IMG/VR virus record: IMGVR_UViG_3300047472_000033 | Coordinates: 1 to 56,249 of that record | Strand: one strand, 5' to 3' | DNA from: a virus | Length of the DNA stretch: 56,249 bases | The notes under the pieces: generated by a model | What the model was told of the DNA's origin: nothing | Database searches by the model: none | What the model saw: only the letters and a program-made list of their open reading frames with translations | Made by a program: the position numbers and the translations under genes | Shown here: positions 11,250 to 26,500 of the stretch, piece by piece | Numbering within the stretch: the stretch's first letter is position 1 | How the letters are laid out: every line of letters begins with the position of its first letter

Positions 11250-11278
11250 CACCGATTACCCCGCAAGATCAATGACTG

Positions 11279-11325: not shown

Positions 11326-11330
11326 GCCTT

Positions 11331-11373: not shown

Positions 11374-11378
11374 ACACC

Positions 11379-11645: not shown

Positions 11646-11649
11646 TCTC

Positions 11650-11690
11650 AAAAGCCTCTGAATCCCACACGGGATTTATGCTTTGTCTTT
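11650..11690 (+). terminator. Cassette terminator 2
   Basis: Nested stems AATCCC/GGGATT (11661-11676, ACAC loop) and AAAGC/GCTTT outside, followed by a T-rich tail that runs into promoter element 3. Confidence 0.65.
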
Positions 11691-11733
11691 CGCAGGAAAA
11701 ACACGGGCTTTAATGAGACCCCTCTACGAAAGG
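11690..11733 (+). promoter_or_regulatory. Start-associated promoter element 3
   Basis: TCGCAGG, A-rich spacer, TTTAAT at 11709-11714, then GAGACCCCTCTAC (two extra bases compared with the consensus) and GAAAGG before the ATG at 11740. Confidence 0.7.
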
Positions 11734-11739
11734 CCAGCA

Positions 11740-12060
11740 ATGGACCTCAAGAAGAAGTTCAAAGACACCAAAGCCAAGATCAAGCACTACGCTCCCGAGA
11801 TCGCTGCTTTCGGCGTCGTCGTCACCCTGGCCGCAGCTGCCATCTACGCGATCAAGAAGGACCTCTCAGAAGGCATCGAAGGAACACTAGTGTTCATTCC
11901 CCAGCCCTCTGAAGAATCTGACAAGACCGAACGTGGAACTGTGTTCAAGGTGACTGGCGAAGACCGCGACAGGATCATCGGAGATACTACGTTCGATCTC
12001 TACGGCATCACTGATGTGGATGACTTCTACTACCTGACCAACGACCCCTCAGACGACTGA
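11740..12060 (+). CDS. Small membrane protein of cassette 3
   Basis: 106 residues from ATG 11740, placed correctly behind the GAAAGG of promoter element 3; an in-frame ATG at 11683 would lie inside the promoter and is rejected. A lysine-rich N-terminus precedes a membrane span at about 20-38, followed by a 65-residue soluble, acidic domain (FKVTGEDRDRIIGDTTFDLY, then TDVDDFYYLTND). The positive-inside rule predicts the acidic part outside the cytoplasm. No family recognised. Confidence 0.7.
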   Translation: MDLKKKFKDTKAKIKHYAPEIAAFGVVVTLAAAAIYAIKKDLSEGIEGTLVFIPQPSEESDKTERGTVFKVTGEDRDRIIGDTTFDLYGITDVDDFYYLTNDPSDD

Positions 12061-12074
12061 TCTCAAACGCCATC

Positions 12075-12104
12075 GGCCGGCCCCACACGGCCTTTGGTTT
12101 TTGT
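12075..12104 (+). terminator. Cassette terminator 3
   Basis: GGCC (12079-12082) pairs with GGCC (12089-12092), followed by TTTGGTTTTTG. A weaker member of the cassette terminator set. Confidence 0.5.
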
Positions 12105-12109
12105 CTGAT

Positions 12110-12151
12110 TCGCACCATTTACATGGCTTATTATGAGACCCCTACGAAAGG
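12110..12151 (+). promoter_or_regulatory. Start-associated promoter element 4
   Basis: TTCGCA, spacer with ATTTACATGGC, TATTAT at 12129-12134, GAGACCCCTAC and GAAAGG before the ATG at 12163. Confidence 0.75.
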
Positions 12152-12162
12152 ACCATATTCTA

Positions 12163-12375
12163 ATGTCTACTCCTCCTCGCTTCAACATCTCAGACGCTCA
12201 GCGCCACTTCACCGCCCCTGTGAACAAGGCCAACATCGCCATCGACGAGATCAAGCGCGAACACAAACTCGCCAAGATCAAGCTCGCTGGTACGTACGTT
12301 GGAATCGTTCTCGGCGCGGCGACGACCGCTTACGTCCTGATCAAGAAGCAGAGCAAGACCACTGAAGAAGACTGA
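12163..12375 (+). CDS. Small membrane protein of cassette 4
   Basis: 70 residues from ATG 12163; the longer in-frame start at 12133 falls inside the leader motif and is rejected. A soluble helical N-terminus (ISDAQRHFTAPVNKANIAID) is followed by a lysine-rich stretch, a C-proximal membrane span at about 41-60 (LAGTYVGIVLGAATTAYVLI) and KK plus an acidic end (TTEED). The shape suggests a tail-anchored inner-membrane protein with the N-terminus in the cytoplasm. No family recognised. Confidence 0.7.
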   Translation: MSTPPRFNISDAQRHFTAPVNKANIAIDEIKREHKLAKIKLAGTYVGIVLGAATTAYVLIKKQSKTTEED

Positions 12376-12390
12376 CCTTCACGATCAACC

Positions 12391-12427
12391 TCAAAGCCCA
12401 CTCCCCCTACACGGGGTTTGGGTTTCG
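12391..12427 (+). terminator. Cassette terminator 4
   Basis: CCCC, TACAC loop, GGGG (12413-12416) then TTTGGGTTT, with an outer AAAGCCCA arm able to pair with TGGGTTT. Typical of the cassette terminators. Confidence 0.7.
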
Positions 12428-12466
12428 CAGGAAATACATGGCCTATAATGAGACCCCTACGAAAGG
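12425..12466 (+). promoter_or_regulatory. Start-associated promoter element 5
   Basis: TCGCAGG, spacer with AAATACATGGCC, TATAAT at 12444-12449, GAGACCCCTAC and GAAAGG before the ATG at 12474. Confidence 0.8.
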
Positions 12467-12473
12467 CATTACG

Positions 12474-12767
12474 ATGCAGCACACTTACTCGTTGTACGGC
12501 TCGCCCCTCCACCTCATTCTCGAAGAGAAGGTTGCTGACGGCTACAATCGTGTACACCTCGGCTTCATCGAGGCGCAGAAGAAATTCAAAGAGGACTACG
12601 GAATCCAGTGGACTCCCGAACTCCCGATCGAAATCAATGCGTCCCCCGAAGACCTCAAGGCATACGACGACATCGCCAAGCTCCTGAACCTCCTGATCGA
12701 GATCAACGGCGGCAGCCTCGACATCAACGAAGACCAGTGCATCACCGCAACGCTTGACCGAGTCTGA
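12474..12767 (+). CDS. Small soluble protein of cassette 5
   Basis: 97 residues from ATG 12474 (the in-frame ATG at 12438 precedes the promoter -10 and is rejected). Unlike most cassette products it has no membrane span. It looks mostly helical, with GSPLHLILEEKVADGYNRVH near the start and two acidic segments. It uses the same promoter and terminator design as its membrane-protein neighbours. Function unknown. Confidence 0.65.
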   Translation: MQHTYSLYGSPLHLILEEKVADGYNRVHLGFIEAQKKFKEDYGIQWTPELPIEINASPEDLKAYDDIAKLLNLLIEINGGSLDINEDQCITATLDRV

Positions 12768-12771
12768 TCTC

Positions 12772-12806
12772 AAAGCCTCTGAACCCCCACATGGGGTTTA
12801 TGCTTT
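12772..12806 (+). terminator. Cassette terminator 5
   Basis: AACCCC (12782-12787) pairs with GGGGTT (12793-12798), and outer AAAGC with GCTTT, then the TTTCGCA of the next promoter element. Confidence 0.65.
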
Positions 12807-12849
12807 CGCACGTAATACATGGCTTATTATGAGACCCTACTGAATAGGA
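12804..12849 (+). promoter_or_regulatory. Start-associated promoter element 6
   Basis: TTTCGCA, spacer with AATACATGGC, TATTAT at 12825-12830, then GAGACCCTAC (one C fewer than consensus) and a divergent AATAGGA ribosome site before the ATG at 12856. Confidence 0.7.
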
Positions 12850-12855
12850 AACGCC

Positions 12856-13098
12856 ATGTTTGGAAACCAGAAGCGCGGTATCCGCATCACCCTCGACAAG
12901 ACCAAGAAGACCGAAAACTCCACCCCCGGAGAGAACGAGATAATTCACCCCCAAACTGTCAAGCTCATCGCTGAGCGAAGCAAGGAAGTTGTGAAGTATG
13001 TCGCTCTCACCGCTATCGGAGCCTACGCAGCCTTCAAGGCTATCGACACCGTGAGCCAGATCGCCATTAAGAAGACCAAGAGCGCAGACCAAGAGTAG
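12856..13098 (+). CDS. Small membrane-associated protein of cassette 6
   Basis: 80 residues. A basic N-terminal tail (about 1-20) and a polar linker precede an amphipathic to hydrophobic segment at about 45-66 (VVKYVALTAIGAYAAFKAID), then a lysine-rich end. Layout is like cassette products 3, 4 and 8. No family recognised. Confidence 0.65.
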   Translation: MFGNQKRGIRITLDKTKKTENSTPGENEIIHPQTVKLIAERSKEVVKYVALTAIGAYAAFKAIDTVSQIAIKKTKSADQE

Positions 13099-13104
13099 AT
13101 CACC

Positions 13105-13131
13105 AACCCGCCCCGCAAGGGGTTTGGGTTT
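13105..13131 (+). terminator. Cassette terminator 6 with GNRA loop
   Basis: AACCC-G-CCCC-GCAA-GGGG-TTT-GGGTT: a CCCC/GGGG stem closed by a GCAA tetraloop and an outer AACCC/GGGTT stem. Confidence 0.75.
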
Positions 13132-13134
13132 AGC

Positions 13135-13178
13135 TCGCATTAAAAACACGGGCTATTATGAGACCCCTACGATTGGAA
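13135..13178 (+). promoter_or_regulatory. Start-associated promoter element 7
   Basis: CTCGCA, spacer with TTAAAAACACGGGC, TATTAT at 13154-13159, GAGACCCCTAC and GATTGGA ribosome site before the ATG at 13186. Confidence 0.75.
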
Positions 13179-13185
13179 ACCAAAG

Positions 13186-13332
13186 ATGTTCGAGAACCTT
13201 AAGCGTTCCGCTGCCGCGATCAACCGTATTGTCAAGTCCCGCCAGAACCACAAGGCGAGGATGAAGATGATCAAGGAAGACGAGGAGTGGATGCTGAATG
13301 CCATCGACGAAGCTTTCAGGAATCTGAAGTAA
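13186..13332 (+). CDS. Small basic protein of cassette 7
   Basis: 48 residues (first residues MFENLKRSAAAINRIV, last FRNLK), stop TAA. It is highly basic in its first two thirds and contains no membrane span, so it could bind nucleic acid or an acidic partner. It is supported by its exact fit between promoter element 7 and its own GCAA-loop terminator. Confidence 0.65.
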   Translation: MFENLKRSAAAINRIVKSRQNHKARMKMIKEDEEWMLNAIDEAFRNLK

Positions 13333-13336
13333 CCTC

Positions 13337-13363
13337 AACCCGCCCCGCAAGGGGTTTGGGTTT
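13337..13363 (+). terminator. Cassette terminator 7 with GNRA loop
   Basis: Identical design to terminator 6: AACCC-G-CCCC-GCAA-GGGG-TTT-GGG-TTT. Confidence 0.75.
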
Positions 13364-13377
13364 CGTCAAAATGAGAG
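13364..13377 (+). promoter_or_regulatory. CGTCAAAATGAGAG leader copy
   Basis: The 14 bases CGTCAAAATGAGAG are shared with the leaders of the connector (43830) and portal (48713) genes. A shorter CGTCAAAATG core precedes or contains the capsid and head-closure start codons at 50622 and 52643. Confidence 0.5.
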
Positions 13378-13385
13378 TGTTTTGT

Positions 13386-13643
13386 ATGAGGATTAAGAAG
13401 GCGATCATCGCCCCCACGTACATCCAGGCACGTCTGTTCTGTCAATTCGAGGGATGGGACGTCAGAGACTTCGACATCCTCACGAGGCCTGAACACCTCC
13501 AAGGTCGTTTCTTCGACGAGTACGAAGTGTGGTGGCTAGACCGTATGTGGTCGTGCAGGACTCACGAAGACGTGGCGTTTATGGTTGAGATGGAGCGCCA
13601 GGCAAAGATTCGCGGCGCCGACCTTCGAAGATGGTGGACCTGA
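13386..13643 (+). CDS. Hypothetical protein
   Basis: 85 residues from ATG 13386 (or 90 from ATG 13371). By analogy with the leaders at 43830 and 48713 the first ATG is probably part of the ribosome-site leader. The sequence has an IAPTYIQARLFCQFEGWDVR segment and is rich in Trp, Arg and acidic residues, with no membrane span. It has no cassette promoter of its own and probably relies on read-through of terminator 7. I do not recognise a family. Confidence 0.6.
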   Translation: MRIKKAIIAPTYIQARLFCQFEGWDVRDFDILTRPEHLQGRFFDEYEVWWLDRMWSCRTHEDVAFMVEMERQAKIRGADLRRWWT

Positions 13644-13679
13644 TCCAAAAAATCCCGCCGTGGAATTTTCGGTATAGGG

Positions 13680-13723
13680 TCGCAGGGTTTACACACCCTA
13701 TAATGAGACCCCTACCGATTGGA
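13680..13723 (+). promoter_or_regulatory. Start-associated promoter element 8
   Basis: GTCGCAGG, spacer with GTTTACACACCC, TATAAT at 13699-13704, GAGACCCCTAC and GATTGGA ribosome site before the ATG at 13731. Confidence 0.78.
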
Positions 13724-13730
13724 CGCTAAC

Positions 13731-13952
13731 ATGCTCCAGACCATCAACGGACGCGAATGCTACGTCGCCGTATTGACCCAGTCTCCTCAGATCTATCTCC
13801 CTGTTGGGGATGACGGTGATCCGCAGCTTACGCCCTACGCGAATGCTCTGGACACCGCCATCCGTACGGGAGTGATCACGGAGCCCGGCAAGTACGGTAT
13901 CGAAGTGAAAACCGACGGTGCCTGGATGGCTTACGCCATTATCGAGAACTGA
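13731..13952 (+). CDS. Small soluble protein of cassette 8
   Basis: 73 residues from ATG 13731; a TTG at 13719 is part of the GATTGG ribosome site. It looks like a compact alpha-beta protein (INGRECYVAVLTQSPQIYLP early, then GKYGIEVKTDGAWMAYAIIE) with no membrane span. Together with cassettes 5 and 7 it shows that the array is not limited to membrane proteins. No family recognised. Confidence 0.65.
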   Translation: MLQTINGRECYVAVLTQSPQIYLPVGDDGDPQLTPYANALDTAIRTGVITEPGKYGIEVKTDGAWMAYAIIEN

Positions 13953-13957
13953 TCTCA

Positions 13958-13992
13958 CCACCCATCCCCGATCCCACACGGGGTTTGGGTTT
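13958..13992 (+). terminator. Cassette terminator 8
   Basis: CCCC (13966-13969) pairs with GGGG (13980-13983), followed by TTTGGGTTT; an inner CCC-ACAC-GGG stem is an alternative. Confidence 0.6.
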
Positions 13993-14009
13993 CGTCGAAG
14001 GAGAAAACC

Positions 14010-14216
14010 GTGAACCGTAGGGCTGTCATGTTCGTTATTTCGCTCGCTGCAGCGGTGGTCACCCACCAGAGTATTATGTTGAAGAAGGTCTATGACCAGG
14101 CATTCGATGCCGGCTGGGAAGGACGCAAGGCATATGAGCAGTGCAAGGCCGACCTCGGCAACGACGACCCTACTGTCGAAGAGTTTGAGTACTGGAAGAA
14201 GTACATCAGGGGATAG
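14010..14216 (+). CDS. Small membrane protein
   Basis: 68 residues from a GTG behind a GAAGGAG ribosome site. An N-terminal span at about 4-22 (RAVMFVISLAAAVVTHQSI) is followed by an amphipathic domain with the segment AFDAGWEGRKAYEQCK. It lies just after terminator 8 without a start-associated element, so it is likely expressed by partial read-through. No family recognised. Confidence 0.65.
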   Translation: MNRRAVMFVISLAAAVVTHQSIMLKKVYDQAFDAGWEGRKAYEQCKADLGNDDPTVEEFEYWKKYIRG

Positions 14217-14217
14217 G

Positions 14218-14260
14218 TCGCATGGAAAACACGGCTTATAATGAGACCCCTACGAAAGGA
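14218..14260 (+). promoter_or_regulatory. Start-associated promoter element 9
   Basis: GTCGCA, spacer with TGGAAAACACGGC, TATAAT at 14237-14242, GAGACCCCTAC and GAAAGGA before the ATG at 14267. Confidence 0.8.
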
Positions 14261-14266
14261 TCCATC

Positions 14267-14443
14267 ATGGACCGCGACGAGAACGAAACCCCTCCCGCTG
14301 ACGCCAAGACCATCATCGCTATTGTCGGTGTGGTGAGCATTGCTACATTCAGTGCTTATCACCTCGGCAAGCTCGGTGTGGACTGGGCGCGCGAAGGTAT
14401 TCGCTCCCGCAAGGAAAAGAAAACGAACTGGACCGTAATCTAA
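14267..14443 (+). CDS. Small membrane protein of cassette 9
   Basis: 58 residues from ATG 14267; the ORF can be read from 14222 but that lies in the promoter. An acidic N-terminus (MDRDENETPPAD) precedes one span at about 14-32 (KTIIAIVGVVSIATFSAYH) and a basic tail (GIRSRKEKKTNW), so the C-terminus is expected in the cytoplasm. No family recognised. Confidence 0.7.
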   Translation: MDRDENETPPADAKTIIAIVGVVSIATFSAYHLGKLGVDWAREGIRSRKEKKTNWTVI

Positions 14444-14448
14444 TCTCA

Positions 14449-14477
14449 AGCCCGCCCCGCAAGGGGTTTGGGTTTTC
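14449..14477 (+). terminator. Cassette terminator 9 with GNRA loop
   Basis: AAGCCCG then CCCC-GCAA-GGGG-TTTGGGTTTT at 14455-14474. Confidence 0.75.
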
Positions 14478-14489
14478 GGAGGGGGAGGC

Positions 14490-14609
14490 ATGAAGAACCA
14501 AGGCTCCAATTTCGCTGTAGTCCTCGGTTGTCTGGCACTAGCTGGTGAGCAATACTGGTTGGGTTTCTGGCTGATCATCATCGGGTGTGTTATTCGCGAT
14601 TATACCTGA
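14490..14609 (+). CDS. 39-residue membrane peptide
   Basis: Starts at ATG 14490 behind a strong GGAGGGGGAGG ribosome site. The product begins MKNQGSNFAVVLGCLALAG and is almost entirely hydrophobic with two Trp-rich turns, ending IRDYT. It is a one- or two-span membrane peptide. The strong ribosome site and fit between terminator 9 and promoter element 10 support it as real. Confidence 0.55.
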   Translation: MKNQGSNFAVVLGCLALAGEQYWLGFWLIIIGCVIRDYT

Positions 14610-14615
14610 TCATTC

Positions 14616-14659
14616 TCGCACGAAAAACACGGCCTATAATGAGACCCCTACCGATTGGA
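14616..14659 (+). promoter_or_regulatory. Start-associated promoter element 10
   Basis: CTCGCACGAAAAACACGGCC, TATAAT at 14635-14640, GAGACCCCTAC and GATTGGA before the ATG at 14665. Closest copy to the consensus. Confidence 0.82.
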
Positions 14660-14664
14660 ATACC

Positions 14665-14853
14665 ATGCCCATCAAGCAGAAGCTCTCTTCCGCCAAGAAC
14701 GCCGTTGCTCGCAACCGTGTCAAGATCCTGGGCACCATCGCCGTCGTATCCACGACTGTGGTGTTGATCCAGGGCCGAAACATCAAGATGTTCAACAAGT
14801 TCCTGGACGAGAAGGGCCTGACTGAAGAGTACTACTTCCTCAACGAAGAGTGA
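14665..14853 (+). CDS. Small membrane protein of cassette 10
   Basis: 62 residues from ATG 14665. A basic N-terminus (KQKLSSAKNAVARNRVK) leads into a span at about 20-36 (ILGTIAVVSTTVVLIQG), followed by a short KMFNKFLDEKGLTEEYYFLN tail. The acidic end resembles that of cassette product 3. No family recognised. Confidence 0.7.
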   Translation: MPIKQKLSSAKNAVARNRVKILGTIAVVSTTVVLIQGRNIKMFNKFLDEKGLTEEYYFLNEE

Positions 14854-14858
14854 TCGAC

Positions 14859-14892
14859 AACCCCTCCCCGCCCCACACGGGGTTTGGGTTTA
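14859..14892 (+). terminator. Cassette terminator 10
   Basis: CCCC-ACAC-GGGG (14871-14882) followed by TTTGGGTTT, with outer AACCCC able to extend the stem. Confidence 0.7.
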
Positions 14893-14909
14893 GCTTTTCG
14901 TCCCAGGGG

Positions 14910-14952
14910 TCGCATGAAAAACATGCCTTATAATGAGACCCCTACCGATTGG
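14910..14952 (+). promoter_or_regulatory. Start-associated promoter element 11
   Basis: GTCGCATGAAAAACATGCCT, TATAAT at 14929-14934, GAGACCCCTAC and GATTGGA before the ATG at 14960. A CATG-AAAAA-CATG inverted repeat lies in the spacer. Confidence 0.8.
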
Positions 14953-14959
14953 ATTCGCC

Positions 14960-15148
14960 ATGCTTAAGAAGCCCTCGAACCCCTCCGAAATTCTCGACGA
15001 CGACTACCGCCGTGCCTACGCTGCGCAGGAAATCAAGAAGACCATCCTCATCTGGGGAGCGGTCAAGCTCGCTTCCACTGCTGCCGTGGTCATCACGCTG
15101 AAGGTCATCGCCAAGAAGCTCGAGGCGAACGCCGCTTCCGAAGACTGA
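14960..15148 (+). CDS. Small membrane protein of cassette 11
   Basis: 62 residues from ATG 14960. A soluble N-terminus (SEILDDDYRRAYAAQEIKK) precedes one span at about 29-50 (ILIWGAVKLASTAAVVITL) and an AKKLEANAASED tail. Orientation is probably N-terminus in. No family recognised. Confidence 0.7.
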   Translation: MLKKPSNPSEILDDDYRRAYAAQEIKKTILIWGAVKLASTAAVVITLKVIAKKLEANAASED

Positions 15149-15171
15149 CATCCACCGCAAGACCTCTACCG

Positions 15172-15202
15172 CCCACACCCCCCTGACACGGGGTTTGGGT
15201 TT
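15172..15202 (+). terminator. Cassette terminator 11
   Basis: CCCC (15180-15183) pairs with GGGG (15190-15193) and is followed by TTTGGGTTT. Confidence 0.65.
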
Positions 15203-15218
15203 CGCTGAAGGGAACAAA

Positions 15219-15389
15219 ATGGGTCAGAGCGTAGACAACGTGGTCAACAAGATGAAGGAAGCCTTCGAGGAAAACCCGCTCGGCGTCATTCTGGCGATCT
15301 CGACTCTGTTCGCTGGTACCGCCAAGCTGGTCAATGCCTTCGCCGGCATCCAGAGCAAGAGGGCTTACGCCCACAAGTACAGCAAGTAG
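15219..15389 (+). CDS. Small membrane protein
   Basis: 56 residues from ATG 15219 with GAAGGGAA upstream. A charged N-terminus (VVNKMKEAFEENP) is followed by one span at about 20-42 (LGVILAISTLFAGTAKLVNA) and a basic tail. It has no start-associated element. With the next two genes it forms a small three-gene unit whose last two members share a repeated ribosome-site leader. Confidence 0.7.
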   Translation: MGQSVDNVVNKMKEAFEENPLGVILAISTLFAGTAKLVNAFAGIQSKRAYAHKYSK

Positions 15390-15403
15390 TCCATATCTAG
15401 GGG
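15381..15403 (+). repeat. 23-bp direct repeat (translation leader), copy 1
   Basis: Identical over 23 bases to 15621-15643. It covers the stop of the upstream gene and the GGGGAGG-type ribosome site of the downstream one, consistent with a tandem gene duplication. Confidence 0.8.
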
Positions 15404-15413
15404 AGGAAGACCC

Positions 15414-15629
15414 ATGAGTGACGACAACGTTCAGAGCATCACGTCTGACGGAAGTGAAGAGGGCGGGGAGGGATTCGACATCAACAAGGAAGACCTCGAG
15501 GAGTTCGCGGCTCGAGTGAACAAGGCTCAGAAGAGCTTCCTGTTCAAGGCAGGCGTCTTCATCATCGCGCTCAAGGTCGTCGACGTAATCGGACGTGTGG
15601 CCATCGAGAAGGTCCGTTCCAGCAAGTAG
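15414..15629 (+). CDS. Small tail-anchored membrane protein, paralogue A
   Basis: 71 residues. The first 40 are acidic and polar (SDGSEEGGEGFDINKEDLEE), then one span at about 42-63 (LFKAGVFIIALKVVDVIGRV) and a basic IEKVRSSK end. The C-terminal third aligns with that of the next gene (both end in G-(R/K)-(V/I)-x-basic-SSK/SKK), so the two look like diverged duplicates. Ribosome site GGGGAGGAAG. Confidence 0.7.
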   Translation: MSDDNVQSITSDGSEEGGEGFDINKEDLEEFAARVNKAQKSFLFKAGVFIIALKVVDVIGRVAIEKVRSSK

Positions 15630-15643
15630 TCCATATCTAGGGG
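15621..15643 (+). repeat. 23-bp direct repeat (translation leader), copy 2
   Basis: Second copy of the leader at 15381-15403. Confidence 0.8.
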
Positions 15644-15654
15644 GAGGGGATCCC

Positions 15655-15891
15655 ATGGGTGAAGACATCACGCCCAACAGCGCCAAGGTCTACAACGTCG
15701 TATCGTACATGAACGACGACACGGACGAGTACACGCACGCGCAGGCAAGCGAAGATATTCGAAGGGCTTCGGAGGCGGTGTACAAGGCCACCAAGGGCGT
15801 TCTCACCAAGATCTGCCTGACCATCGTCGTCTGCAAGGTCATGGGAGTCACGGGGAAGATCATCCTGGGTCGGATGGCGTCCAAGAAATAG
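15655..15891 (+). CDS. Small tail-anchored membrane protein, paralogue B
   Basis: 78 residues from ATG 15655; upstream in-frame starts would run back through the repeat leader and are rejected. Polar N-terminus with THAQASEDIRRASEAVYKAT, then a span at about 49-71 (VLTKICLTIVVCKVMGVTGK) and the tail RMASKK. Probable duplicate of the preceding gene. Confidence 0.7.
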   Translation: MGEDITPNSAKVYNVVSYMNDDTDEYTHAQASEDIRRASEAVYKATKGVLTKICLTIVVCKVMGVTGKIILGRMASKK

Positions 15892-15899
15892 GGCAAACC

Positions 15900-15946
15900 T
15901 CGCATAAAAAACAAGCCCTATAATGAGACCCCTACTCCAGAATGGA
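15900..15946 (+). promoter_or_regulatory. Start-associated promoter element 12
   Basis: CTCGCATAAAAAACAAGCCC, TATAAT at 15919-15924, GAGACCCCTAC, then a longer, divergent gap with a weak GAATGGAA site before the ATG at 15953. Confidence 0.75.
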
Positions 15947-15952
15947 ACCGTC

Positions 15953-16207
15953 ATGCCCGACAAGACCAACTCCGAGAAGACCTCGATCCTCACCGACGCC
16001 ATGAAGCGCGCCGAAGAGCTGAAGAACCGCGTGACCCGCGACTCCAGCGAAGAGACCCCCATCGACAAGAAGACCGCTTACAAGCGTGCTGCTGCCGGTG
16101 TCGGAGTCCTCGCTGCAGTCGCCACCGCCGGCTACTTCGCTTGGAAGGCCGCTGCCAAGGCATCGAAGGACACCGAGACCTCCACGGACGAGTCCGTCGA
16201 AGACTGA
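15953..16207 (+). CDS. Small membrane protein of cassette 12
   Basis: 84 residues from ATG 15953. A charged helical N-terminal half (LTDAMKRAEELKNRVTRD) leads to one span at about 45-64 (RAAAGVGVLAAVATAGYFAW), then a lysine/alanine stretch and a strongly acidic end. No family recognised. Confidence 0.7.
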   Translation: MPDKTNSEKTSILTDAMKRAEELKNRVTRDSSEETPIDKKTAYKRAAAGVGVLAAVATAGYFAWKAAAKASKDTETSTDESVED

Positions 16208-16233
16208 CCCACCACACTGACCGGATGATCAAT

Positions 16234-16265
16234 ACCCAGACCCCCTAACACGGGGTTTGGGTTTC
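16234..16265 (+). terminator. Cassette terminator 12
   Basis: CCCC-TAACAC-GGGG (16242-16255) followed by TTTGGGTTTCC; outer ACCC can pair with GGGT. Confidence 0.68.
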
Positions 16266-16291
16266 CGTTTTCTCTCAAGGGGGATTGAAAG

Positions 16292-16729
16292 ATGTACGGA
16301 CAGAACCGCAAGAAGATGTTCCTGGCTATATCTGGTGCTGTACTGGCCGCGGCATTCATCGGAGGCGTTTCCGCAACGCAACTCGCCTCCGGCGATGACG
16401 AGCCGAAGACGAAGAACTCGATCATCGTGGATCTCACGGGTAAGTGGCACCAGACCGAGGGTGCTCCGGGGATGATCATGGATGCCATCGTAGAGGGCGA
16501 GAGCATCCAGGTCAACGTGATCACCCGTGACTCCAGCACCGTCTACTGGATGGGCTCGTTCAACGAGAACCCCACGTCCAGCAAGATCGTCTCGCTGGCG
16601 GACCCTGACGCGCAGAAGGTCATGAGCGGGTCCATATTCGGGTTGCAAGACCCGTCCAAGACGTTCAACTACGAGGACGGCGTACTCAGCTTCAAGTACG
16701 AGACCTCCACTGTTCAGCTCGAGAAGTAG
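16292..16729 (+). CDS. Membrane-anchored or exported protein
   Basis: 145 residues. The N-terminus (basic NRKK, then FLAISGAVLAAAFIGGVSAT) is a signal anchor or signal peptide. The remainder is a beta-rich domain with IIVDLTGKWHQTEGAPGMIM, SSTVYWMGSF and a repeated LSFKYETSTVQL end, resembling small lipocalin-like or beta-barrel hypothetical proteins of actinophages. It is predicted to act outside the cytoplasm. Ribosome site AAGGGGGA. Function unknown; superinfection exclusion would be one possibility. Confidence 0.65.
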   Translation: MYGQNRKKMFLAISGAVLAAAFIGGVSATQLASGDDEPKTKNSIIVDLTGKWHQTEGAPGMIMDAIVEGESIQVNVITRDSSTVYWMGSFNENPTSSKIVSLADPDAQKVMSGSIFGLQDPSKTFNYEDGVLSFKYETSTVQLEK

Positions 16730-16741
16730 GGATATTCCTCG

Positions 16742-16888
16742 ATGTCGAAGTCGATCAAGAAAGATCTCACCCACCTCATCGCCATCTCCCTCGGGACGTT
16801 CGTCGAATCGGCCTTCAAGGGTGCCGGGGTGGCGTTCGGTGCCGCCCTGATCGCCAAGAAGTTCGGCGTCCTCCCCCTCAAGAAGTAA
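16742..16888 (+). CDS. 48-residue membrane peptide
   Basis: Starts MSKSIKKDLTHLIAISLGTF and ends FGVLPLKK, with one glycine-rich hydrophobic segment at about 11-38 containing a FKGAGVAFGAALIAKK helix. It is compact and basic at both ends. It lies between the exported protein and the DUF6353 gene in what appears to be one operon. The ribosome site is weak (GGGATATTCCTCG). No family recognised. Confidence 0.55.
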   Translation: MSKSIKKDLTHLIAISLGTFVESAFKGAGVAFGAALIAKKFGVLPLKK

Positions 16889-16912
16889 CCGACCACCTCG
16901 CCAATCGCCGGC

Positions 16913-16929
16913 GATATTCGCAAGGAGAG
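16913..16929 (+). promoter_or_regulatory. Ribosome-binding leader GATATTCGCAAGG, second copy
   Basis: Same 13 bases as 8647-8659, here followed by AGAG and the ATG at 16937. An ATCGCCGGCGAT palindrome lies just upstream (16904-16915). Confidence 0.4.
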
Positions 16930-16936
16930 CTTTACC

Positions 16937-17716
16937 ATGGATTTCAGCGCACTCTTCAAGGGTGCCGGAAAGGCCGCTGCAGCAAATTCGCCGGCGATCC
17001 TGACCGCACTCGCTGTGACGGGCACTCTTACGACCGCGTTCTTCGCGGCTAAGGGTGCCTTCAAGGCCAAGGAAGTCATCGACGATGCTCAGGCTACGCA
17101 CGACGCCGAAGAGCAGAGTCACCCGTTCACGACCAGGGAGAAGTTCGATCTCACCTGGAAGTGCTACATCCCCGCGGCGGCTTCCGCTGCTCTGACCGTG
17201 GCGGCGATCATCGGGCTCAACCGCATGGGCGAGCGACGTGCGGCAGCTATGGCTGCTGCATATTCCACGATCCAGAAGGGGTACGAGGAGTACTCCAAGT
17301 CGACGAAGACGAAGCTCGGGAAGACCAAGGAAGAGGCGATGCGTGCGGACATCGCCCAGCGTCGTATCGACGACACTCCGAACAACAGGCTCCCGCGCTT
17401 CATCCAGGACTCCGGTCCAACGATGTGCTTCGATGCCTGGTCGGGTCGATATTTCGGCAGTGACGTGAACTCGATCGACGCCGCCGTGAACGAGTTCAAC
17501 CGGAAGATCATCAACGACAACTACGCATCGCTGAGCGACTTCTGGTACCTGCTCTCCGAGCACGAGCTCCCGCCGACCTCCGGGTCGGACCAGGTCGGAT
17601 GGACCACTGACAACCTCCTGGAGCTCACCAAGGTCTACGGAACGCACATGGGGAATCCCTGCCTCGTCATCGACTTCGAGGTTCCCCCGACCATGAAGTA
17701 CGACACGCTGTATTGA
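16937..17716 (+). CDS. DUF6353-family membrane protein, paralogue 1
   Basis: 259 residues. Two hydrophobic segments at about 19-38 (PAILTALAVTGTLTTAFFAA) and 76-95 (IPAAASAALTVAAIIGLNRM) flank a KAKEVIDDAQ helix. A long helical stretch (about 98-150) and a C-terminal domain follow, with GPTMCFDAWSGRYF and PCLVIDFEVPP. The same architecture occurs in the protein at 21297. I associate it with DUF6353, a phage family of unknown role. It may build a membrane-bound complex with the neighbouring single-span proteins. Confidence 0.7.
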   Translation: MDFSALFKGAGKAAAANSPAILTALAVTGTLTTAFFAAKGAFKAKEVIDDAQATHDAEEQSHPFTTREKFDLTWKCYIPAAASAALTVAAIIGLNRMGERRAAAMAAAYSTIQKGYEEYSKSTKTKLGKTKEEAMRADIAQRRIDDTPNNRLPRFIQDSGPTMCFDAWSGRYFGSDVNSIDAAVNEFNRKIINDNYASLSDFWYLLSEHELPPTSGSDQVGWTTDNLLELTKVYGTHMGNPCLVIDFEVPPTMKYDTLY

Positions 17717-17757
17717 AGAGCGGCGTGTTTCTACGCAGCTAACCACCTGGGGGATTA

Positions 17758-18243
17758 ATGGCATATTGCCACGACTGCCCCGATCGCGAAGCTTGCCATC
17801 AAGGCATGTCCTGCGAGCTTTCCAAGAAGTTCGCTGTAGCAGCACAACTGTTGTATTCCAAAACTAGCCCCGAGAGGCAAACCACCATGTCGAAGAACGC
17901 CGAGAGCAAGAACATCACCGCCGCCGACGTCGTCGCGGAGGCCGAGAAGGCCAACCTGCTCCAGGAGGACGCGACCGTTCCCGCCCAGGCCACCAACCCC
18001 GACACCGAGGTCGTCGACGAGAAGAAGACGGACGGGTGCGACCAGTCGGAGCCGAAGGTCTCGCTCTTCGGCAAGGTGAAGCTCTTCGTCCAGGACCACA
18101 AGGCGGCGATCTCCTTCGGCACGGTGGTCGCCACCGGTCTCGCGGCCCTCATGTTCAACAAGCTCTCCGACAAGAGCACCGAGGACGAGGCGGAGGAGAC
18201 CGACACCGTCGAGGTCACGGACTCCGAGACCCCCGAAGCCTGA
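17758..18243 (+). CDS. Membrane protein with possible Cys-rich N-terminal extension
   Basis: 161 residues if translated from ATG 17758, with CHDCPDREACHQGMSC (a possible metal-binding Cys cluster) at the N-terminus; 118 residues from the internal ATG 17887, which has a GAGAGG site. Codon use changes at 17887 to extremely GC-rich third positions, so the internal start is probably the main one. The core has a polar region, one span at about 118-137 (AAISFGTVVATGLAALMFNK) and an acidic C-terminus. Two starts could give two isoforms. No family recognised. Confidence 0.6.
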   Translation: MAYCHDCPDREACHQGMSCELSKKFAVAAQLLYSKTSPERQTTMSKNAESKNITAADVVAEAEKANLLQEDATVPAQATNPDTEVVDEKKTDGCDQSEPKVSLFGKVKLFVQDHKAAISFGTVVATGLAALMFNKLSDKSTEDEAEETDTVEVTDSETPEA

Positions 18244-18303
18244 TCAACCAACCCCCCAGTAAATACCGGCCCCCACCGGAACGCCAGATAAGGAAACACC
18301 ACC

Positions 18304-18867
18304 ATGGCACTCATCAACCACACCATATCGTACAAGGACCTGGACGGAAACCCCGCCGTGGTCACGTACCAGTTCAACCTGAACGCGTCCGAGATCGCCG
18401 AGCTGAAGATCGCTCACAACGACGACCTGCCGGCGTACCTCGACAAGATGATCAAGTCGCAGAACGGCCAGGAGGTCATTATCGGCTTCCGCTCGATCCT
18501 CACCAAGGCCGTAGGCATCCGTGAGGGCGACCAGCTCGTCAAGAGCCAGGAGATCGAGGACCGGTTCGTCCAGACCGGCGCCTACGACGCCATGTTCCTG
18601 GAGCTCATCGGCTCGAAGGACAGCGGTGCGGGCTTCATCAACTCCATCATGCCGCAGGAGATCATCGACAAGCACGCGCAGGAGACCCATCACTCCGACG
18701 AGGAGCTCCTCACGATGTCGAACCGCGAGTTCGCGGAGATCGCCGGCACCGACCCGAAGGCGATGTCCAAGCACCTTCTGCCCATCTACCACGAGCGCAA
18801 GGAGCGTGCCCGCGCGGAGAACGCCCACAAGAAGGTCCGCCCGAAGAAGCACCGTCAGGCGGCCTGA
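18304..18867 (+). CDS. Tail assembly chaperone-like protein
   Basis: 187 residues with very GC-rich codons. The opening (HTISYKDLDGNPAVVTYQFN then LNASEIAELKI), the middle (QEVIIGFRSILTKAVGIREG) and TGAYDAMFLELIGSKDSGAGF follow the pattern of a family often annotated as tail assembly chaperone in actinophages. The C-terminus is very basic (KKVRPKKHRQ). It is odd that it sits in the small-gene region and not beside the tape measure; another chaperone candidate is at 54164. Codon use suggests strong expression. Assignment is tentative. Confidence 0.5.
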   Translation: MALINHTISYKDLDGNPAVVTYQFNLNASEIAELKIAHNDDLPAYLDKMIKSQNGQEVIIGFRSILTKAVGIREGDQLVKSQEIEDRFVQTGAYDAMFLELIGSKDSGAGFINSIMPQEIIDKHAQETHHSDEELLTMSNREFAEIAGTDPKAMSKHLLPIYHERKERARAENAHKKVRPKKHRQAA

Positions 18868-18983
18868 TGTCTAGGCGAAAGAAGTACGGCCCGGGACGGT
18901 TCCTGGTCGACCTCACCCTCGGTTTCCTTACTGGTGGTCTGTGGTGGATCTGGATGCTGTTCCGGGCTTTGCGCACCGCCTGA
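18867..18983 (+). CDS. 38-residue membrane peptide
   Basis: ATG overlaps the preceding stop (TGATG), so it is translationally coupled. The product starts MSRRKKYGPGRFLVDLTLGF and ends LFRALRTA, with one Trp-rich span (GFLTGGLWWIWMLFRAL). Short basic peptides of this kind follow tail-chaperone-like genes in some actinophages. Function unknown. Confidence 0.55.
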   Translation: MSRRKKYGPGRFLVDLTLGFLTGGLWWIWMLFRALRTA

Positions 18984-19069
18984 TATATACGTGATGACTG
19001 GGGAATCAGCAACAGGCCTTGTCCCGTGTAGGGGTCTCAGCAAGGTTTGTCCTCCGGATGCTGATTTTA
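18984..19069 (+). ncRNA. Candidate small RNA with antisense seed to the cassette leaders
   Basis: An extended -10 (TGATATATAC, 18981-18990) precedes a structured segment. AATCAGCA at 19004-19011 and a second TCAGCA at 19037-19042 can each pair with TGCTGATT at 19059-19066, giving two alternative stems, the inner one followed by TTTT like an intrinsic terminator. Between them GTAGGGGTCTC (19028-19038) is the exact reverse complement of GAGACCCCTAC, the leader motif of the cassette genes. Transcription as a small RNA is inferred. The alternative is an inverted copy of a protein-binding site. It is too short and lacks the T-arm for a tRNA. Confidence 0.4.
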
Positions 19070-19157
19070 AACGCCAGCCGAGCCCATCCTCCCCCGTGTG
19101 GGAAACATGTGCCCTGGTCATCGCGCCATCGATATTCTGAAGAGGAGGTGTACAACG

Positions 19158-19232
19158 ATGGACGAAGAGGAATGGGTGGACGGTAATGGAAATCCTACCG
19201 CTCCCCCTGAGCAAATCATTTACCCCCGTTAG
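19158..19232 (+). CDS. 24-residue leader-like peptide
   Basis: Sequence begins MDEEEWVDGNGNPTAPPEQI and ends IYPR; it has a strong GAAGAGGAGGTG ribosome site. It is acidic and proline-rich. It ends 34 bases before the NlpC/P60 start and could couple or regulate its translation. Supported mainly by the strong ribosome site. Confidence 0.45.
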   Translation: MDEEEWVDGNGNPTAPPEQIIYPR

Positions 19233-19266
19233 GAAACGCAGTTCCTTCGAAAGATTGGACAGCACC

Positions 19267-19755
19267 ATGAAAAGCACCGTAAGCAAGATCGTCCTCATAT
19301 TCGTACTGGCATTCGGAACGGTTTCCGTTTCTATGCCCAGTGCAGAGGCCGCGCCGACGCTCAGGTCCGCCGCCATGGCAAGCGCCAACACCCAGAAGGG
19401 TGCGAAGTACGTATGGGGTGCAGCAGGGCCCTACAGCAAGGGCTACGACTGCTCTGGCCTGATCTACTGGGCGTACAAGCAGCACGGTAAGACGCTGCCG
19501 CGAGTCGCCCAGGACCAGTACAATCACTCAACTCACATATCCGCTGGATCCCGGCAGCCGGGAGACCTGGTGTTCATACGTGACGCTCGGGGTCACGTAT
19601 ACCACGTAGGGATATTCACCCGTGTCTACAAGGGCAAGGGCATGATGGTCAATGCGAACTACGGGAGAACCACCGCCCATATTGTTGGGGAGTGGCCGAT
19701 CTCGAACTACACGTATGGATCGCCGTACGCTTCATACGGCCGGTACTACAACTGA
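19267..19755 (+). CDS. Secreted NlpC/P60-family peptidoglycan hydrolase
   Basis: 162 residues from ATG 19267. A clear Sec signal peptide (about 1-28: basic start, KIVLIFVLAFGTVSVSM core, cleavage expected after SAEA) is followed by an NlpC/P60 domain. The catalytic Cys is C62 in YDCSGL and the His is H113 in HVYHVGI; the G-A-x-Y-x-W-G-A-A-G-P motif before the Cys is typical. These enzymes cut cell-wall peptides (usually D-Glu to diamino acid). A signal peptide means export without the holin, unlike the amidase at 42958. Likely roles are cell-wall remodelling, release or exclusion; this is inference. It may be host-derived. Confidence 0.85.
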   Translation: MKSTVSKIVLIFVLAFGTVSVSMPSAEAAPTLRSAAMASANTQKGAKYVWGAAGPYSKGYDCSGLIYWAYKQHGKTLPRVAQDQYNHSTHISAGSRQPGDLVFIRDARGHVYHVGIFTRVYKGKGMMVNANYGRTTAHIVGEWPISNYTYGSPYASYGRYYN

Positions 19756-19758
19756 CCA

Positions 19759-19807
19759 TCGCAGAAAAAACATGCTCTATAGTGAGACCCCTACTTTTTT
19801 CGAAAGG
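19759..19807 (+). promoter_or_regulatory. Start-associated promoter element 13
   Basis: ATCGCAGAAAAAACATGCTC, TATAGT at 19778-19783, GAGACCCCTAC, a T run, then CGAAAGG before the ATG at 19816. Last copy in the array. Confidence 0.72.
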
Positions 19808-21121: not shown

Positions 21122-21300
21122 AATTCCTCGCAGGATTCGCACTGGGTGCTGCCGCCGGCAAACCCATCATGAAGGCGGTACGAATCTACGTTGTGCCTGT
21201 GGTACAGCGCAAGATCACCGCAAGCATCACCGGCATTTTCGCTTGGTCTGAGGGCTACCTCGCCGAGCATGACAAGATCAACAAGGAGAACAACCGATGA
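21118..21300 (+). CDS. Small membrane protein
   Basis: 60 residues from GTG 21118, overlapping the preceding stop (GTGA) and preceded by AAGGCGAA. A Gly/Ala-rich N-terminus (FLAGFALGAAAGKPIMKAVR), an IYVVPVVQRK segment and an acidic-Asn end. Part of a tightly coupled membrane-protein operon. Confidence 0.68.
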   Translation: MKFLAGFALGAAAGKPIMKAVRIYVVPVVQRKITASITGIFAWSEGYLAEHDKINKENNR

Positions 21301-22235
21301 GTATCAAGACTCTTGGCCATGCCATCAGTCGCAAGGCCACCAAGCAGGTCCTGACCGTCCAGAAGCACTCCCCCGTCCTGCTGATCGGCGTGGGTCTCAT
21401 CGGCGTTGGAACCTCCATGGTCCTCGCCTGCCGTGCGACGCTCAAGGCAAGCGATATCCTCGAAGAGGGTGAGAAGAACAAGTCCAAGTTCGAGCACGCC
21501 ACTCGGATGATGGACGAGGGTCGTGAGACCGAGCTCACCGACGAAGAGAAGAACATTCTGAAGAAGGGTCTCTTTGGGATCCAGCTTCGGGTCGCCTTCG
21601 AGATCACCAAGAAGTACGCGCCGGCCATCGCCCTTGGTGTGGCTTCTGTGGGTGCCATGGCGGGATCGCACATCATCCTGCAGCGCCGGAACGCTGGCCT
21701 TGCCGCGGCTCTTGGCATCGCTCACAAGGGCTTCGAGCAGTACCGGTCTCGCGTCGTCGAGGAGCTGGGTTCGGAGAAGGACCTCGAGTTCCGCTACGGC
21801 ACCATCGAAGAGACGGTGATCGAGGAGACCCCCGAAGGCCCGGTGGCCAAGACGATCAAGCGTATCGACAACAAGAGTGACACGACCGAGGTCGCCTACG
21901 CGCAGTTCTTCGACCCGGAGAACGTGAACTGGCGGGATATCCCGAACCAGAACACGCACTACATCCAGGGTCTTCAGCAGCACTTCAACAACCGCCTGCG
22001 GCTTGACGGCGTCGTCGTCCTGAACGACGTGTACGAGGCACTCGGCTTCAAGAAGACCAAGGCGGGTCACCTGGTCGGCTGGGTTCGCGACGCCGAAGAG
22101 GGTGACAACTTCATCGACTTCATCATCGTCGGCGACAAGCGGCACCGCATGGACTTCGCCAAGGGTCGCGTCATGGAACTCATGATCGACTTCAACGTCC
22201 AGGGCAACATCCTCGACCACATCTCGGAGCTCTGA
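21297..22235 (+). CDS. DUF6353-family membrane protein, paralogue 2
   Basis: 312 residues, ATGA overlap with the previous gene. Two membrane segments at about 24-45 (SPVLLIGVGLIGVGTSMVLA) and 97-120 (YAPAIALGVASVGAMAGSHI) with a KASDILEEGE helix between them, a long helix containing AHKGFEQYRSRVVEE, and a C-terminal domain with EVAYAQFFDPENVNWRDIPN and LMIDFNVQGN. Same architecture as the protein at 16937, so they are paralogues. I associate it with DUF6353; the role is unknown. Confidence 0.75.
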   Translation: MSIKTLGHAISRKATKQVLTVQKHSPVLLIGVGLIGVGTSMVLACRATLKASDILEEGEKNKSKFEHATRMMDEGRETELTDEEKNILKKGLFGIQLRVAFEITKKYAPAIALGVASVGAMAGSHIILQRRNAGLAAALGIAHKGFEQYRSRVVEELGSEKDLEFRYGTIEETVIEETPEGPVAKTIKRIDNKSDTTEVAYAQFFDPENVNWRDIPNQNTHYIQGLQQHFNNRLRLDGVVVLNDVYEALGFKKTKAGHLVGWVRDAEEGDNFIDFIIVGDKRHRMDFAKGRVMELMIDFNVQGNILDHISEL

Positions 22236-23587: not shown

Positions 23588-26500
23588 GTGACGCTGGACT
23601 TCATTCAGTTCATCACGAAGGAAACCAAAAACGGGATCGAAGTAAGACCCGATTTCGTGGTTGGTCGTTCTACGGATCTGATGGTCCAGGGTGGGGCATT
23701 TTACGCCATCTGGAACGAAGAGAAGAAGCTTTGGTCCAGAGACGAGTACGACGTACAGAAACTCGTTGATGCGGAAGTCAAGGCGTTCGCCGAGGAATAT
23801 GTGGAGAAGGGCGTTGAGGTAGCTCCCAAGTACCTCAAGAACTTCGCCAATGGTGGGTGGAAGCAGTTCCGTGCGTTCGTCAAGAACGTCAGTGACAACT
23901 CCCACCCCCTCGACACGAGACTGACTTTCGCTGATACGAAGACTAAGAAGTCGGACTATGCCAGCCGTCGACTCTCCTACATCCTTGCTCCGGGCGATAT
24001 CAGTGCCTACGATGAACTAGTCAGTCTCCTGTACTCCGAAGAGGAGCGCGAGAAGTTCGAGTGGGCTATCGGTGCCATCATCTGCGGTGACGCCAAGAAG
24101 ATTCAGAAATTCTTGGTGTTCTACGGCAAGGGTGGTACCGGTAAGTCAACCATCATGGATATCGTGTTCCTGTTGCTCGGGGGCAAGGTCTCTGATGGTG
24201 GGTATGTCGCGATGTTCGACGCTAAGTCTCTCGTGGGGAATAACGGCGCCTTTGCTACGGAGGCGTTCAAGGACAACCCGCTGGTTGCCATTCAGCAGGA
24301 CGGTGACCTGTCCAAGATCGAAGACAACTCCAAGTTGAACTCGATCATTTCTCACGAGGACATGCGGGTCAACGAGAAGTACAAGGCGACTTACGACACC
24401 AAGGTCAATGCATTCCTCTTCATGGGCACCAATAAGGCCGTGAAGATCTCGGACGCAAAGTCTGGTCTTATCCGTCGCCTTATCGACGTCAACCCTACCG
24501 GTGAAACCCATTCGCCGGATCGATATTTCACGCTTGTCGACAGGTTGAAGTTCGAGCTGGGCGGGATCGCTTATCACTGCCTCCAGGTCTACAAGACCCT
24601 TGGTAGGAATTACTACAGCGATTATCGCCCTGAGAACATGATGCTCAAGACCAACGTGTTCTACAACTACATCGACTGGTACCGAGACATCTTCAAGGCT
24701 CAGGACGGCACGACCCTGAAGCAGGCATGGGAGCTTTATCTCGAATACGCGAAGGAAGCGGAACTCGAGTTCAAAACCCCTCGCCATATCTTCGGGGAAG
24801 AGTTGAAGAACTACTTCCACGAGTTCCATGAGCGTCGTCCCATGCCAGACGGATCACACCCCCGGAAGGTTTATGTTGGGTTCAAGAATCCCAACCCGTT
24901 CAAGGCGCCTGTGGACAAGGCTCATAAGATCTTCACTCTGGTTCTGGAAGAAACCGAATCACTCCTAGACGAGATGTATGCTGGGCTGCCTGCTCAGTAC
25001 ACGTCGAAGGCCGGAACCCCGAAGAGCAAGTGGGAAAGCGTCAAGACTACCCTTGGCGATATCGACACTCAGCAGCTGCATTACCTCAAGGTCCCCGAGA
25101 ACCATATCGTCATCGACTTCGACTTGAAGGACGAGAACGGGGAAAAGTCGCTAGAGGCGAACCTCATTGAGGCTAGCAAATTCCCGCAGACCTATGCCGA
25201 GGTGAGTAAGAGCGGCAACGGTGTTCACCTGCATTACATCTATGATGGGGACGTATCCGATCTCGCTCGGGTATATTCCGACAACATCGAGATTAAGGTC
25301 TACACCGGAAACTCTTCGCTTCGACGCCAGCTGACGTGGTGCAACAACGTAGCGGTGGCCACGATCAACGGCGGTCTGCCCTTCAAGGAGAATAAGTCAA
25401 TGCCCGCGTCCAAGTCCATGATGCAGACCGAGCAGGGCATCCGAGCCCTTATCGCCAAGAACCTTAGGAAGGGGGTCCACCCCGGCACCAAGCCCTCGAT
25501 GGAGTTCATCGAGCATATCCTCAAGGAAGCCAACAAGAACGGCGTCATTTATGACGTCAGCGACATGTTCCAGAAGATGTTCGCCTTCTGCAACAACAGC
25601 AAGAAGAACTCCGAGTACTGCATGACGATCCTCGAGCGGCTTCAGTTGAAGTCGGAGAAGTCATTCGACGAGATCGAAGAGGCTGAGAAGCCTTACGAGT
25701 CGGTGGCAGAGGCTGAGAAGCAGATCGTATTCTTCGACTGCGAGGTGTACCCCAACCTTTTCGTGGTCTGCTGGAAGTACCTCGGTACGCCGAACTCCAG
25801 TGTCGTCTCGATGATCAACCCGACGCCGGCCGAGATCGAACAGTTCATCTACTCGAACAAGCTCATCGGCTTCAACAACCGATCCTACGACAACCATATC
25901 CTCTGGGCTCGGTTCCTCGGATGTGACAACGAGGCTCTCTACGAGCTCTCGCAGCGGATCATCACCAAGAAGGACCAGAACGCCAAGTTCGGTCAGGCGT
26001 ACAGCATTTCCTACGCCGACGTGTACGACTACAGCTCCACCAAGATGGGCCTGAAGAAGTGGGAGATCTTCCTCGGCATTCCTCACGTCGAGATGGATAT
26101 TCCATGGGACAAGCCGGTCCCGGAGAAGCTGTGGACCAAGGTCGTCAACTACTGCATCAATGACGTCAACGCCCTGGAAGCGGTCTTCAACTACTGCAAG
26201 CAGGACCTAGTTGCTCGTGAGATCCTGGCGAGCATGAGTGGGCTGTCGGTCAACAACCCGACTCGGCAGCACGCGATCAAGATCATCTTTGGGGACGATC
26301 GAACCCCTCAGTCGAAGTTCGTGTACACGGACCTCTCCGAGATGTTTCCTGGGTACAAGTTCGACCCGTACTCCAAGAACGAGAAGAGTACCTACAGGGG
26401 CGAGGTCGCCGGCGAGGGTGGCTACGTCTATGCCGAGCCTGGCATCCACAAGAACGTCGCGCTCCTGGATGTCGCTTCGATGCACCCCACCTCGATCGAG

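Follow-up and report, generated by a model that had tools for sequence, protein, structure and literature searches.

We identified in the genome of a virus of soil bacteria a structured RNA that probably controls many viral genes at once. In our preferred reading, which we consider about 60% probable, this anti-leader RNA acts in trans, pairing with a leader shared by about 13 small-gene cassettes and controlling them together. The analysis backs this reading with the fold of the RNA, with covariation between its seed and the leader, and with the co-occurrence of the RNA, a promoter class and a phage RNA polymerase.

A shared leader and its antisense copy

The virus is represented by a single record of 56,249 bases, analysed over its whole length and referred to here as the window. 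Genes annotated on the record include terminase, portal, tail and lysis genes and a DNA polymerase gene at 23588-27517. The region from 10.6 to 20 kb holds an array of small genes, of which most have a separate promoter and many a separate terminator. Over the whole window, the leader GAGACCCCTAC occurs 11 times on the + strand (10929 to 19784) and once on the - strand (19028-19038). Only 0.02 copies, both strands together, are expected in dinucleotide shuffles, which argues that the antisense copy at 19028-19038 is not a chance match. Every + strand copy is located directly 3' of TATAAT or a close variant and 5' of a Shine-Dalgarno sequence. The exact leaders, all on the + strand, are at 10929-10939, 11356-11366, 12135-12145, 12450-12460, 13160-13170, 13705-13715, 14243-14253, 14641-14651, 14935-14945, 15925-15935 and 19784-19794. 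Two further cassette leaders on this strand, GAGACCCCTCTAC (11715-11727) and GAGACCCTAC (12831-12840), are variants with one- or two-base indels. The initial annotation of this DNA had reported a leader unchanged in 11 of 13 cassettes and GTAGGGGTCTC at 19028-19038 as its perfect reverse complement, and both observations held, the latter on the + strand. RNA-RNA interaction prediction, which that annotation had suggested as a check, gave a mean of -29.5 kcal/mol for duplexes of the seed RNA with the 13 leaders, compared with -17.3 kcal/mol at other gene starts.

The promoter found at the cassettes is laid out with constant spacing, as CGCA-N6-ACA-N5-TATAAT, in phages of Streptomyces, Gordonia, Arthrobacter and Curtobacterium. 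Within the array, a strong hairpin resembling a terminator (GGCGTGTAGACCCCTAGCAAGGTTTACACGCC and a subsequent T run, 11281-11315) includes the leader-like AGACCCCTA, and a similar terminator-like hairpin was seen in phage LibertyBell.

Distribution and novelty of the RNA element

The antisense copy lies close downstream of a tail assembly chaperone gene (PF23803, phrog_4282; 18304-18867, + strand) that is syntenic in relatives, possibly with a small ORF in between. By BLAST, Streptomyces phages from several genera share this intergenic stretch, and the relatives inspected had the same gene neighbourhood, with the element downstream of the tail assembly chaperone gene as defined by Pfam and PHROGs. 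The two adjoin each other in many Streptomyces and Gordonia phages, which all belong to a lineage with a YonO-type RNA polymerase. In the window the element is followed by an NlpC/P60 gene and then by the nearest leader, 0.75 kb off; the downstream gene varies among related phages. When the first eight sequences were aligned, AGGGGTCTC was invariant and its flanks were variable, and ATCAGC...GCTGAT was swapped for CCAGC...GCTGG or TCTGC...GCAGA.

A search pattern built on the 3' part of the element, with the anti-leader left out, retrieved dozens more elements from IMG/VR. GGGTCT was conserved in 93-96% of 57 elements, although it had been absent from the pattern. A covariance model also found the RNA in the Gordonia phages Avazak, Petito, Secretariat and Kenosha, and in LibertyBell, SscP1EGY and Scarif. 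A protein-based search of viral contigs for the neighbouring gene gave no relatives, and among the matches listed for the RNA-scaffold pattern in bacterial genome contigs, all looked random. Against Rfam 15, the window, Gordonia and IMG/VR copies had no match at the gathering score, with chance matches only at E values up to 10, and no earlier report of the RNA was found in open-access papers. We conclude that the anti-leader RNA is a previously undescribed structured RNA outside the Rfam families. A c-di-AMP (ydaO/yuaA) riboswitch was considered because the NlpC/P60 gene follows the element; it was rejected, as there was no covariance model match and the downstream genes differ among relatives.

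Structure of the RNA element

Comparison of 57 sequences delimits a structured RNA of about 135 nt at 18989-19125 on the + strand, as defined by covariance model R1, alignment A1 and the predicted fold. Model R1, of which the window is itself a member, matched the window over 131 of 131 positions with an E value of 7e-23. The window element has a predicted folding energy of -55.8 kcal/mol, and its z-score against shuffled sequences is -2.9 on the + strand and -0.6 on the - strand.

The element is closed by P1, whose 5' strand (GATGACTGGGG core, 18990-19003) pairs in the fold with its 3' strand (CCCTGGTCATC core, 19112-19125; fold and covariation). The GGG/CCC base of P1 is conserved, and column 12/197 is double-changed in 17 sequences. 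P2 is formed by AATCAGCA (19004-19011) and TGCTGATT (19059-19066), with compensatory changes in six of eight pairs (for example CG 30, UA 12, AU 10). The inner hairpin P3 (19012-19052, fold of the window element) carries in its apical part the anti-leader seed GTAGGGGTCTC (19028-19038), which complements the 11-nt leader exactly and covaries with it. Inner segments fold better than their dinucleotide shuffles, with a mean z-score of -1.5 over 58 sequences. Between P3 and the 3' strand of P2 lies a conserved bulge, TCCGGA (19053-19058, alignment A1); CCGGA belonged to the search pattern, so its invariance in A1 is by construction, and it is also present in the phages first found by BLAST. P2 is followed by a conserved joining stretch, TTAAACGCCAGCCG (19067-19080; consensus CTTAAACGACAGCCG in the sequence alignments), all of these features being on the + strand.

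Across P1 and P2 we counted 123 double-changed cells, compared with 34.7±6.2 in shuffled alignments and at most 28 in slid ones, and 95% of cells were paired. The compensatory-change score was 0.536, compared with 0.183±0.015 for shuffled and at most 0.098 for slid controls, and none of 500 shuffles scored as high. Compensatory change above both shuffled and slid controls indicates that the element is a conserved structured non-coding RNA.

This structure changes several details of the initial annotation. It had proposed two mutually exclusive stems using either copy of TCAGCA; both copies are present (19006-19011 and 19037-19042), but only the first pairs, in the conserved P2, and the second is not conserved, so that the alternative stems find no support. 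The TTTT that it had taken for a terminator (19066-19069) is present in letters but falls inside the conserved stretch (C)TTAAACGaCAGCCG and does not terminate the RNA, and the predicted species of 70-80 nt ending near 19069 is too short, since the comparative data extend the element to about 19125. The letters of its extended -10 are likewise there (18981-18990), but alignment of relatives revealed no conserved promoter immediately upstream, nor a conserved promoter or terminator at either end of the element. Its core proposal of an RNA pairing with the common cassette leader gained support from the covarying structure and from the covariation of loop and leader across phages.

Seed and leader change together

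As judged from the sequences compared, the loop of the RNA and the leader tag mostly change together across dozens of related viruses. Leaders were searched for in whole contigs with a leader-free pattern, and then collected by promoter spacing alone. Among genomes with mainly GAGACCC leaders, 33 of 41 have a GGGTCT loop. Leaders of the form GAGAACCC accompany the loop GGGTTCTC in both genomes that have them (L035 and L375) and in 0 of 47 others, and in these two genomes GGGTTCTC sits within loops whose flanks are unrelated. Other pairs also match: in L123 the leader GAAGACCCCTTCAC is matched over 12 nt by the loop GTGAAGGGGTCT, in L029 GAACCCCTA by TAGGGGTTC, in L124 GAGGACCCTACG by CGTAGGGTC, and in both L018 and L107 GAGACCCA by TGGGTCTC, and five C in the leaders of L024 and L092 meet five G in the loop.

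When leader sets were permuted among 33 non-redundant loops, the observed complementarity was reached in 0 of 20000 permutations; with the 14 divergent loops only, it was reached in 2-86 of 20000 depending on the measure used, and both figures include the effect of shared ancestry. The initial annotation had named as a possible refutation relatives whose leader motif differs with no corresponding difference in the RNA. Loops usually match, with a few exceptions: L103, L059, L371 and L378 have general-type leaders and no complementary loop, and the fit of seed to leader is poor in L055 and L120. On the contigs of L103 and L059 the RNA scaffold is kept (L313 and L309, respectively) with a loop that is not complementary to the leaders, and these genomes are useful as natural loss cases.

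Promoters in phages without the anti-leader

Phages that lack the anti-leader provide a natural control. In Streptomyces and Gordonia phages with the RNA and at least 6 promoters each, the 11 bases after TATAAT hold 12.8-19.0 bits of information, compared with 4.1-7.9 bits in six Arthrobacter phages without the anti-leader, which represent essentially one clade. The Arthrobacter promoters keep mainly G1, A2 and A4 after TATAAT. In two of the six, Uzumaki and Mudcat, the scaffold has diverged to CTTAAACGACCGC...G[TC]GCCC and lacks the anti-leader, and no RNA scaffold was found in the other four. The joining stretch is retained in these Arthrobacter scaffolds. Curtobacterium phage AddiRose calls for caution in taking leader conservation to track the RNA: its leaders are partly conserved (AGACCCC), but the covariance model found no anti-leader RNA in it.

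Copies of the anti-leader in cis

At 15 of 286 promoters, an antisense copy of the promoter's own leader was found within 126 nt upstream, compared with 0 and 1 in two control windows. In three of these 15 the copy belongs to the RNA element, which lies beside the promoter, and the remaining copies mostly have the arrangement anti-leader arm, promoter, leader. Some cis arms match the leader-specific flank, over up to 14 nt (for example CCGTTAGGGGTCTC with GAGACCCCTAACGG, and TTCGTAGGGGTCTC with GAGACCCCTACGAA), as folding of the transcript would predict. Only in read-through transcripts would these hairpins arise. A leader-bearing promoter also lies within about 126 nt downstream of the seed in LibertyBell and in the genomes of L123 and L048. 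Inverted leader copies were seen immediately upstream of promoters at 5820 in L278, 3234 in L279, 3697 in L286, 17516 in L301, 12426 in L333 and 7557 in L336 (positions on the scanned strand).

A single-chain phage RNA polymerase accompanies the RNA

The window encodes a single-chain phage RNA polymerase (phrog_4291; 38712-41405, + strand) with a GADFDGD motif, as in YonO-like and multisubunit polymerases, and a helix-turn-helix (HTH) resembling sigma region 4 at its C terminus. PHROGs annotates it as 'RNA-dependent RNA polymerase', and its relatives usually carry that name or are annotated as HTH proteins. These relatives were found in 250 phage records, mostly of Arthrobacter, Gordonia and Streptomyces phages. 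The polymerase is encoded in 41 of the 46 records that bear the RNA element, the other five being contigs of 13-39 kb that are possibly incomplete. As a DFDGD single-chain enzyme it is of the same broad class as YonO of SPbeta. The promoter specificity of YonO-like polymerases was reported in 2017 as undetermined, and in SPbeta an unannotated non-coding RNA was described at the start of the YonO operon (PMC5467207). Comparison of the SPbeta YonO start region with the cassette promoters gave no confident alignment.

Mode of action

In the mechanism that we propose, P1 would close the RNA, and P2 and the inner hairpin P3 would present a 9-11 nt anti-leader. This seed would base-pair with GAGACCCCTAC directly after the -10 hexamer of the approximately 13 separately transcribed cassettes, and pairing in trans would control the cassettes as one group. 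The anti-leader RNA would be a discrete transcript, and its target would be RNA, either the 5' leader of the message or nascent or read-through transcripts. Our guess is that the effect is repression, because an 11-bp duplex would reach, or stop a few bases short of, the Shine-Dalgarno sequence GAAAGG/GATTGG, and because the promoters of some relatives hold an anti-leader in cis that would fold over the leader in read-through transcripts.

The position of the complementarity bears on the target. It covers positions 1-9 after TATAAT, peaks at positions 3-7 and ends precisely at the edge of the -10 hexamer. Candidate Shine-Dalgarno sequences with a first base upstream of position 7 are very rare. 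Ordinary sigma-70 promoters start transcription about 7 nt downstream of the -10 hexamer. With such a start, most of the paired bases would be missing from messages initiated at the promoter, leaving read-through RNA or the melted promoter as the target; with a start at the G after TATAAT, the RNA would pair with the exact 5' end of every message. The span of the complementarity, together with an A at position 8 in 60% of Arthrobacter promoters that could be the start site, would suit an RNA that acts at the promoter, its seed pairing with the non-template strand of the open complex or with the melted promoter and blocking or modulating initiation by host or phage RNA polymerase. The G1, A2 and A4 kept by Arthrobacter phages point the same way, as GAGA resembles a promoter discriminator. 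We nevertheless regard this reading as unlikely, since the cis copies of the anti-leader are most simply explained as RNA hairpins, and we know of no precedent in bacteria for a protein-free RNA acting in trans in this manner. Similarly tentative is the broader possibility of a programmable promoter-targeting phage RNA, in which a conserved scaffold with an exchangeable loop, in a lineage with YonO-type polymerases, might set a whole promoter class without a Cas-like protein, the loop pairing with the melted non-template strand just 3' of the -10 hexamer or otherwise acting at initiation.

Three further explanations appear considerably less probable than action at the promoter. Downstream of the -10 hexamer the template strand has the same sequence as the seed, and the RNA co-occurs with the GADFDGD polymerase encoded by these phages, so that the loop could be a 6S-like decoy, a mimic of the phage promoter's template strand by which the polymerase is titrated, seed and leader covarying because the same enzyme reads both. 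This is improbable: the mimicry stops short of the -10 element, although a decoy would be expected to contain it, the RNA matches neither 6S nor any other Rfam family, and Arthrobacter phages have the polymerase and the promoters but no seed. Slightly less probable again is the operator proposed as an alternative in the initial annotation, with GAGACCCCTAC as a protein-binding site and the copy at 19028 as a further site for the same factor. An asymmetric site repeated at promoters, with a second inverted site upstream of some of them, would be consistent with this, but the conserved unit at 19028 is a + strand RNA fold of more than 130 nt (about 135 nt) with compensatory changes and G-U pairs, which holds the site inside a hairpin, and the match of some cis arms extends into leader-specific flanks, which base pairing would call for. 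Least probable of all, we think, is that the element is a 3' UTR or 5' UTR fold controlling its neighbours alone, with its match to the leader stemming from the adjacent downstream promoter. The promoters that closely follow the seed in several relatives fit such a cis-only role; in the window, however, 0.75 kb with the NlpC/P60 gene separates the element from the next leader, different phages have different downstream genes, and conservation of the leader is genome-wide and is lost where the seed is lost.

Relation to known systems

The CI RNA of satellite P4 and the c4 RNA of P1 and P7 (Rfam C4) are small phage antisense immunity RNAs that act on the leader of their own operon. The anti-leader RNA would resemble them as a small phage RNA that pairs through short complementary stretches with phage transcripts and shuts genes down, although those RNAs target one operon and here one seed matches about 13 independent promoters; the RNA of the window also has no Rfam C4 match, a different fold and different phage hosts of the element. 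It may also be likened to bacterial trans-acting sRNAs, with a hairpin-loop seed predicted to pair near the ribosome-binding site of many targets. In contrast to the targets of those sRNAs, every cassette here carries the same target tag, joined to its -10 hexamer, and tag and seed co-evolve as a unit; no Hfq module or terminator was recognised in the anti-leader RNA. By analogy, it would work most like the phage antisense RNAs P4 CI and P1 c4 or like multi-target sRNAs. With 6S RNA it shares a structured RNA and a possible relation to promoter sequence, but there is no match to the 6S covariance model, and the resemblance to the promoter extends over 9-11 nt only and does not include the -10 hexamer.

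The nearest published repeat class is that of the SAS elements of Cluster K mycobacteriophages. SAS/ESAS is a short asymmetric repeat near many small-gene starts, with an opposite-strand copy in some genomes, and the 13-bp SAS GGGATAGGAGCCC includes the Shine-Dalgarno sequence and lies 3-7 bp from the start codon (PMC3203893). Its authors leave open whether a phage RNA or a protein binds it, and describe no complementary phage RNA there (PMC3203893). Both repeats are short, asymmetric and near the starts of small phage genes, but GAGACCCCTAC is fixed to the -10 hexamer with the Shine-Dalgarno sequence downstream, and sequence and phages differ.

A phage that transcribes dozens of small genes separately needs a means of switching them jointly, and, if our preferred reading of a trans-acting anti-leader RNA is correct, a common leader and one complementary RNA would form a genome-wide RNA switch. 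The same system would offer a first approach to the promoters that phages with YonO-like polymerases use. An exchangeable loop on a fixed scaffold suggests that natural orthogonal RNA-controlled promoters could exist. Since the RNA is found in many cultured Streptomyces and Gordonia phages, these proposals are directly testable in existing collections.

Other repeats in the window

Two pairs of paralogues were observed: DUF6353/phrog_2152 proteins encoded at 16937-17716 and 21297-22235, and major tail proteins (phrog_2645) encoded at 53191-54135 and 54721-55506. On its + strand the window has 41 copies of the motif [CG]ATATT[CT], and on its - strand four (for example at 8647, 16731, 16913 and 19131), in intergenic DNA and in all reading frames. 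Its strand bias is absent from Mudcat, Uzumaki and Lactococcus phages, is present in contig89 and a Curtobacterium phage, and is equally extreme in related Streptomyces and Gordonia phages, with 28:0, 25:0 and 18:0 copies per 12-14 kb.
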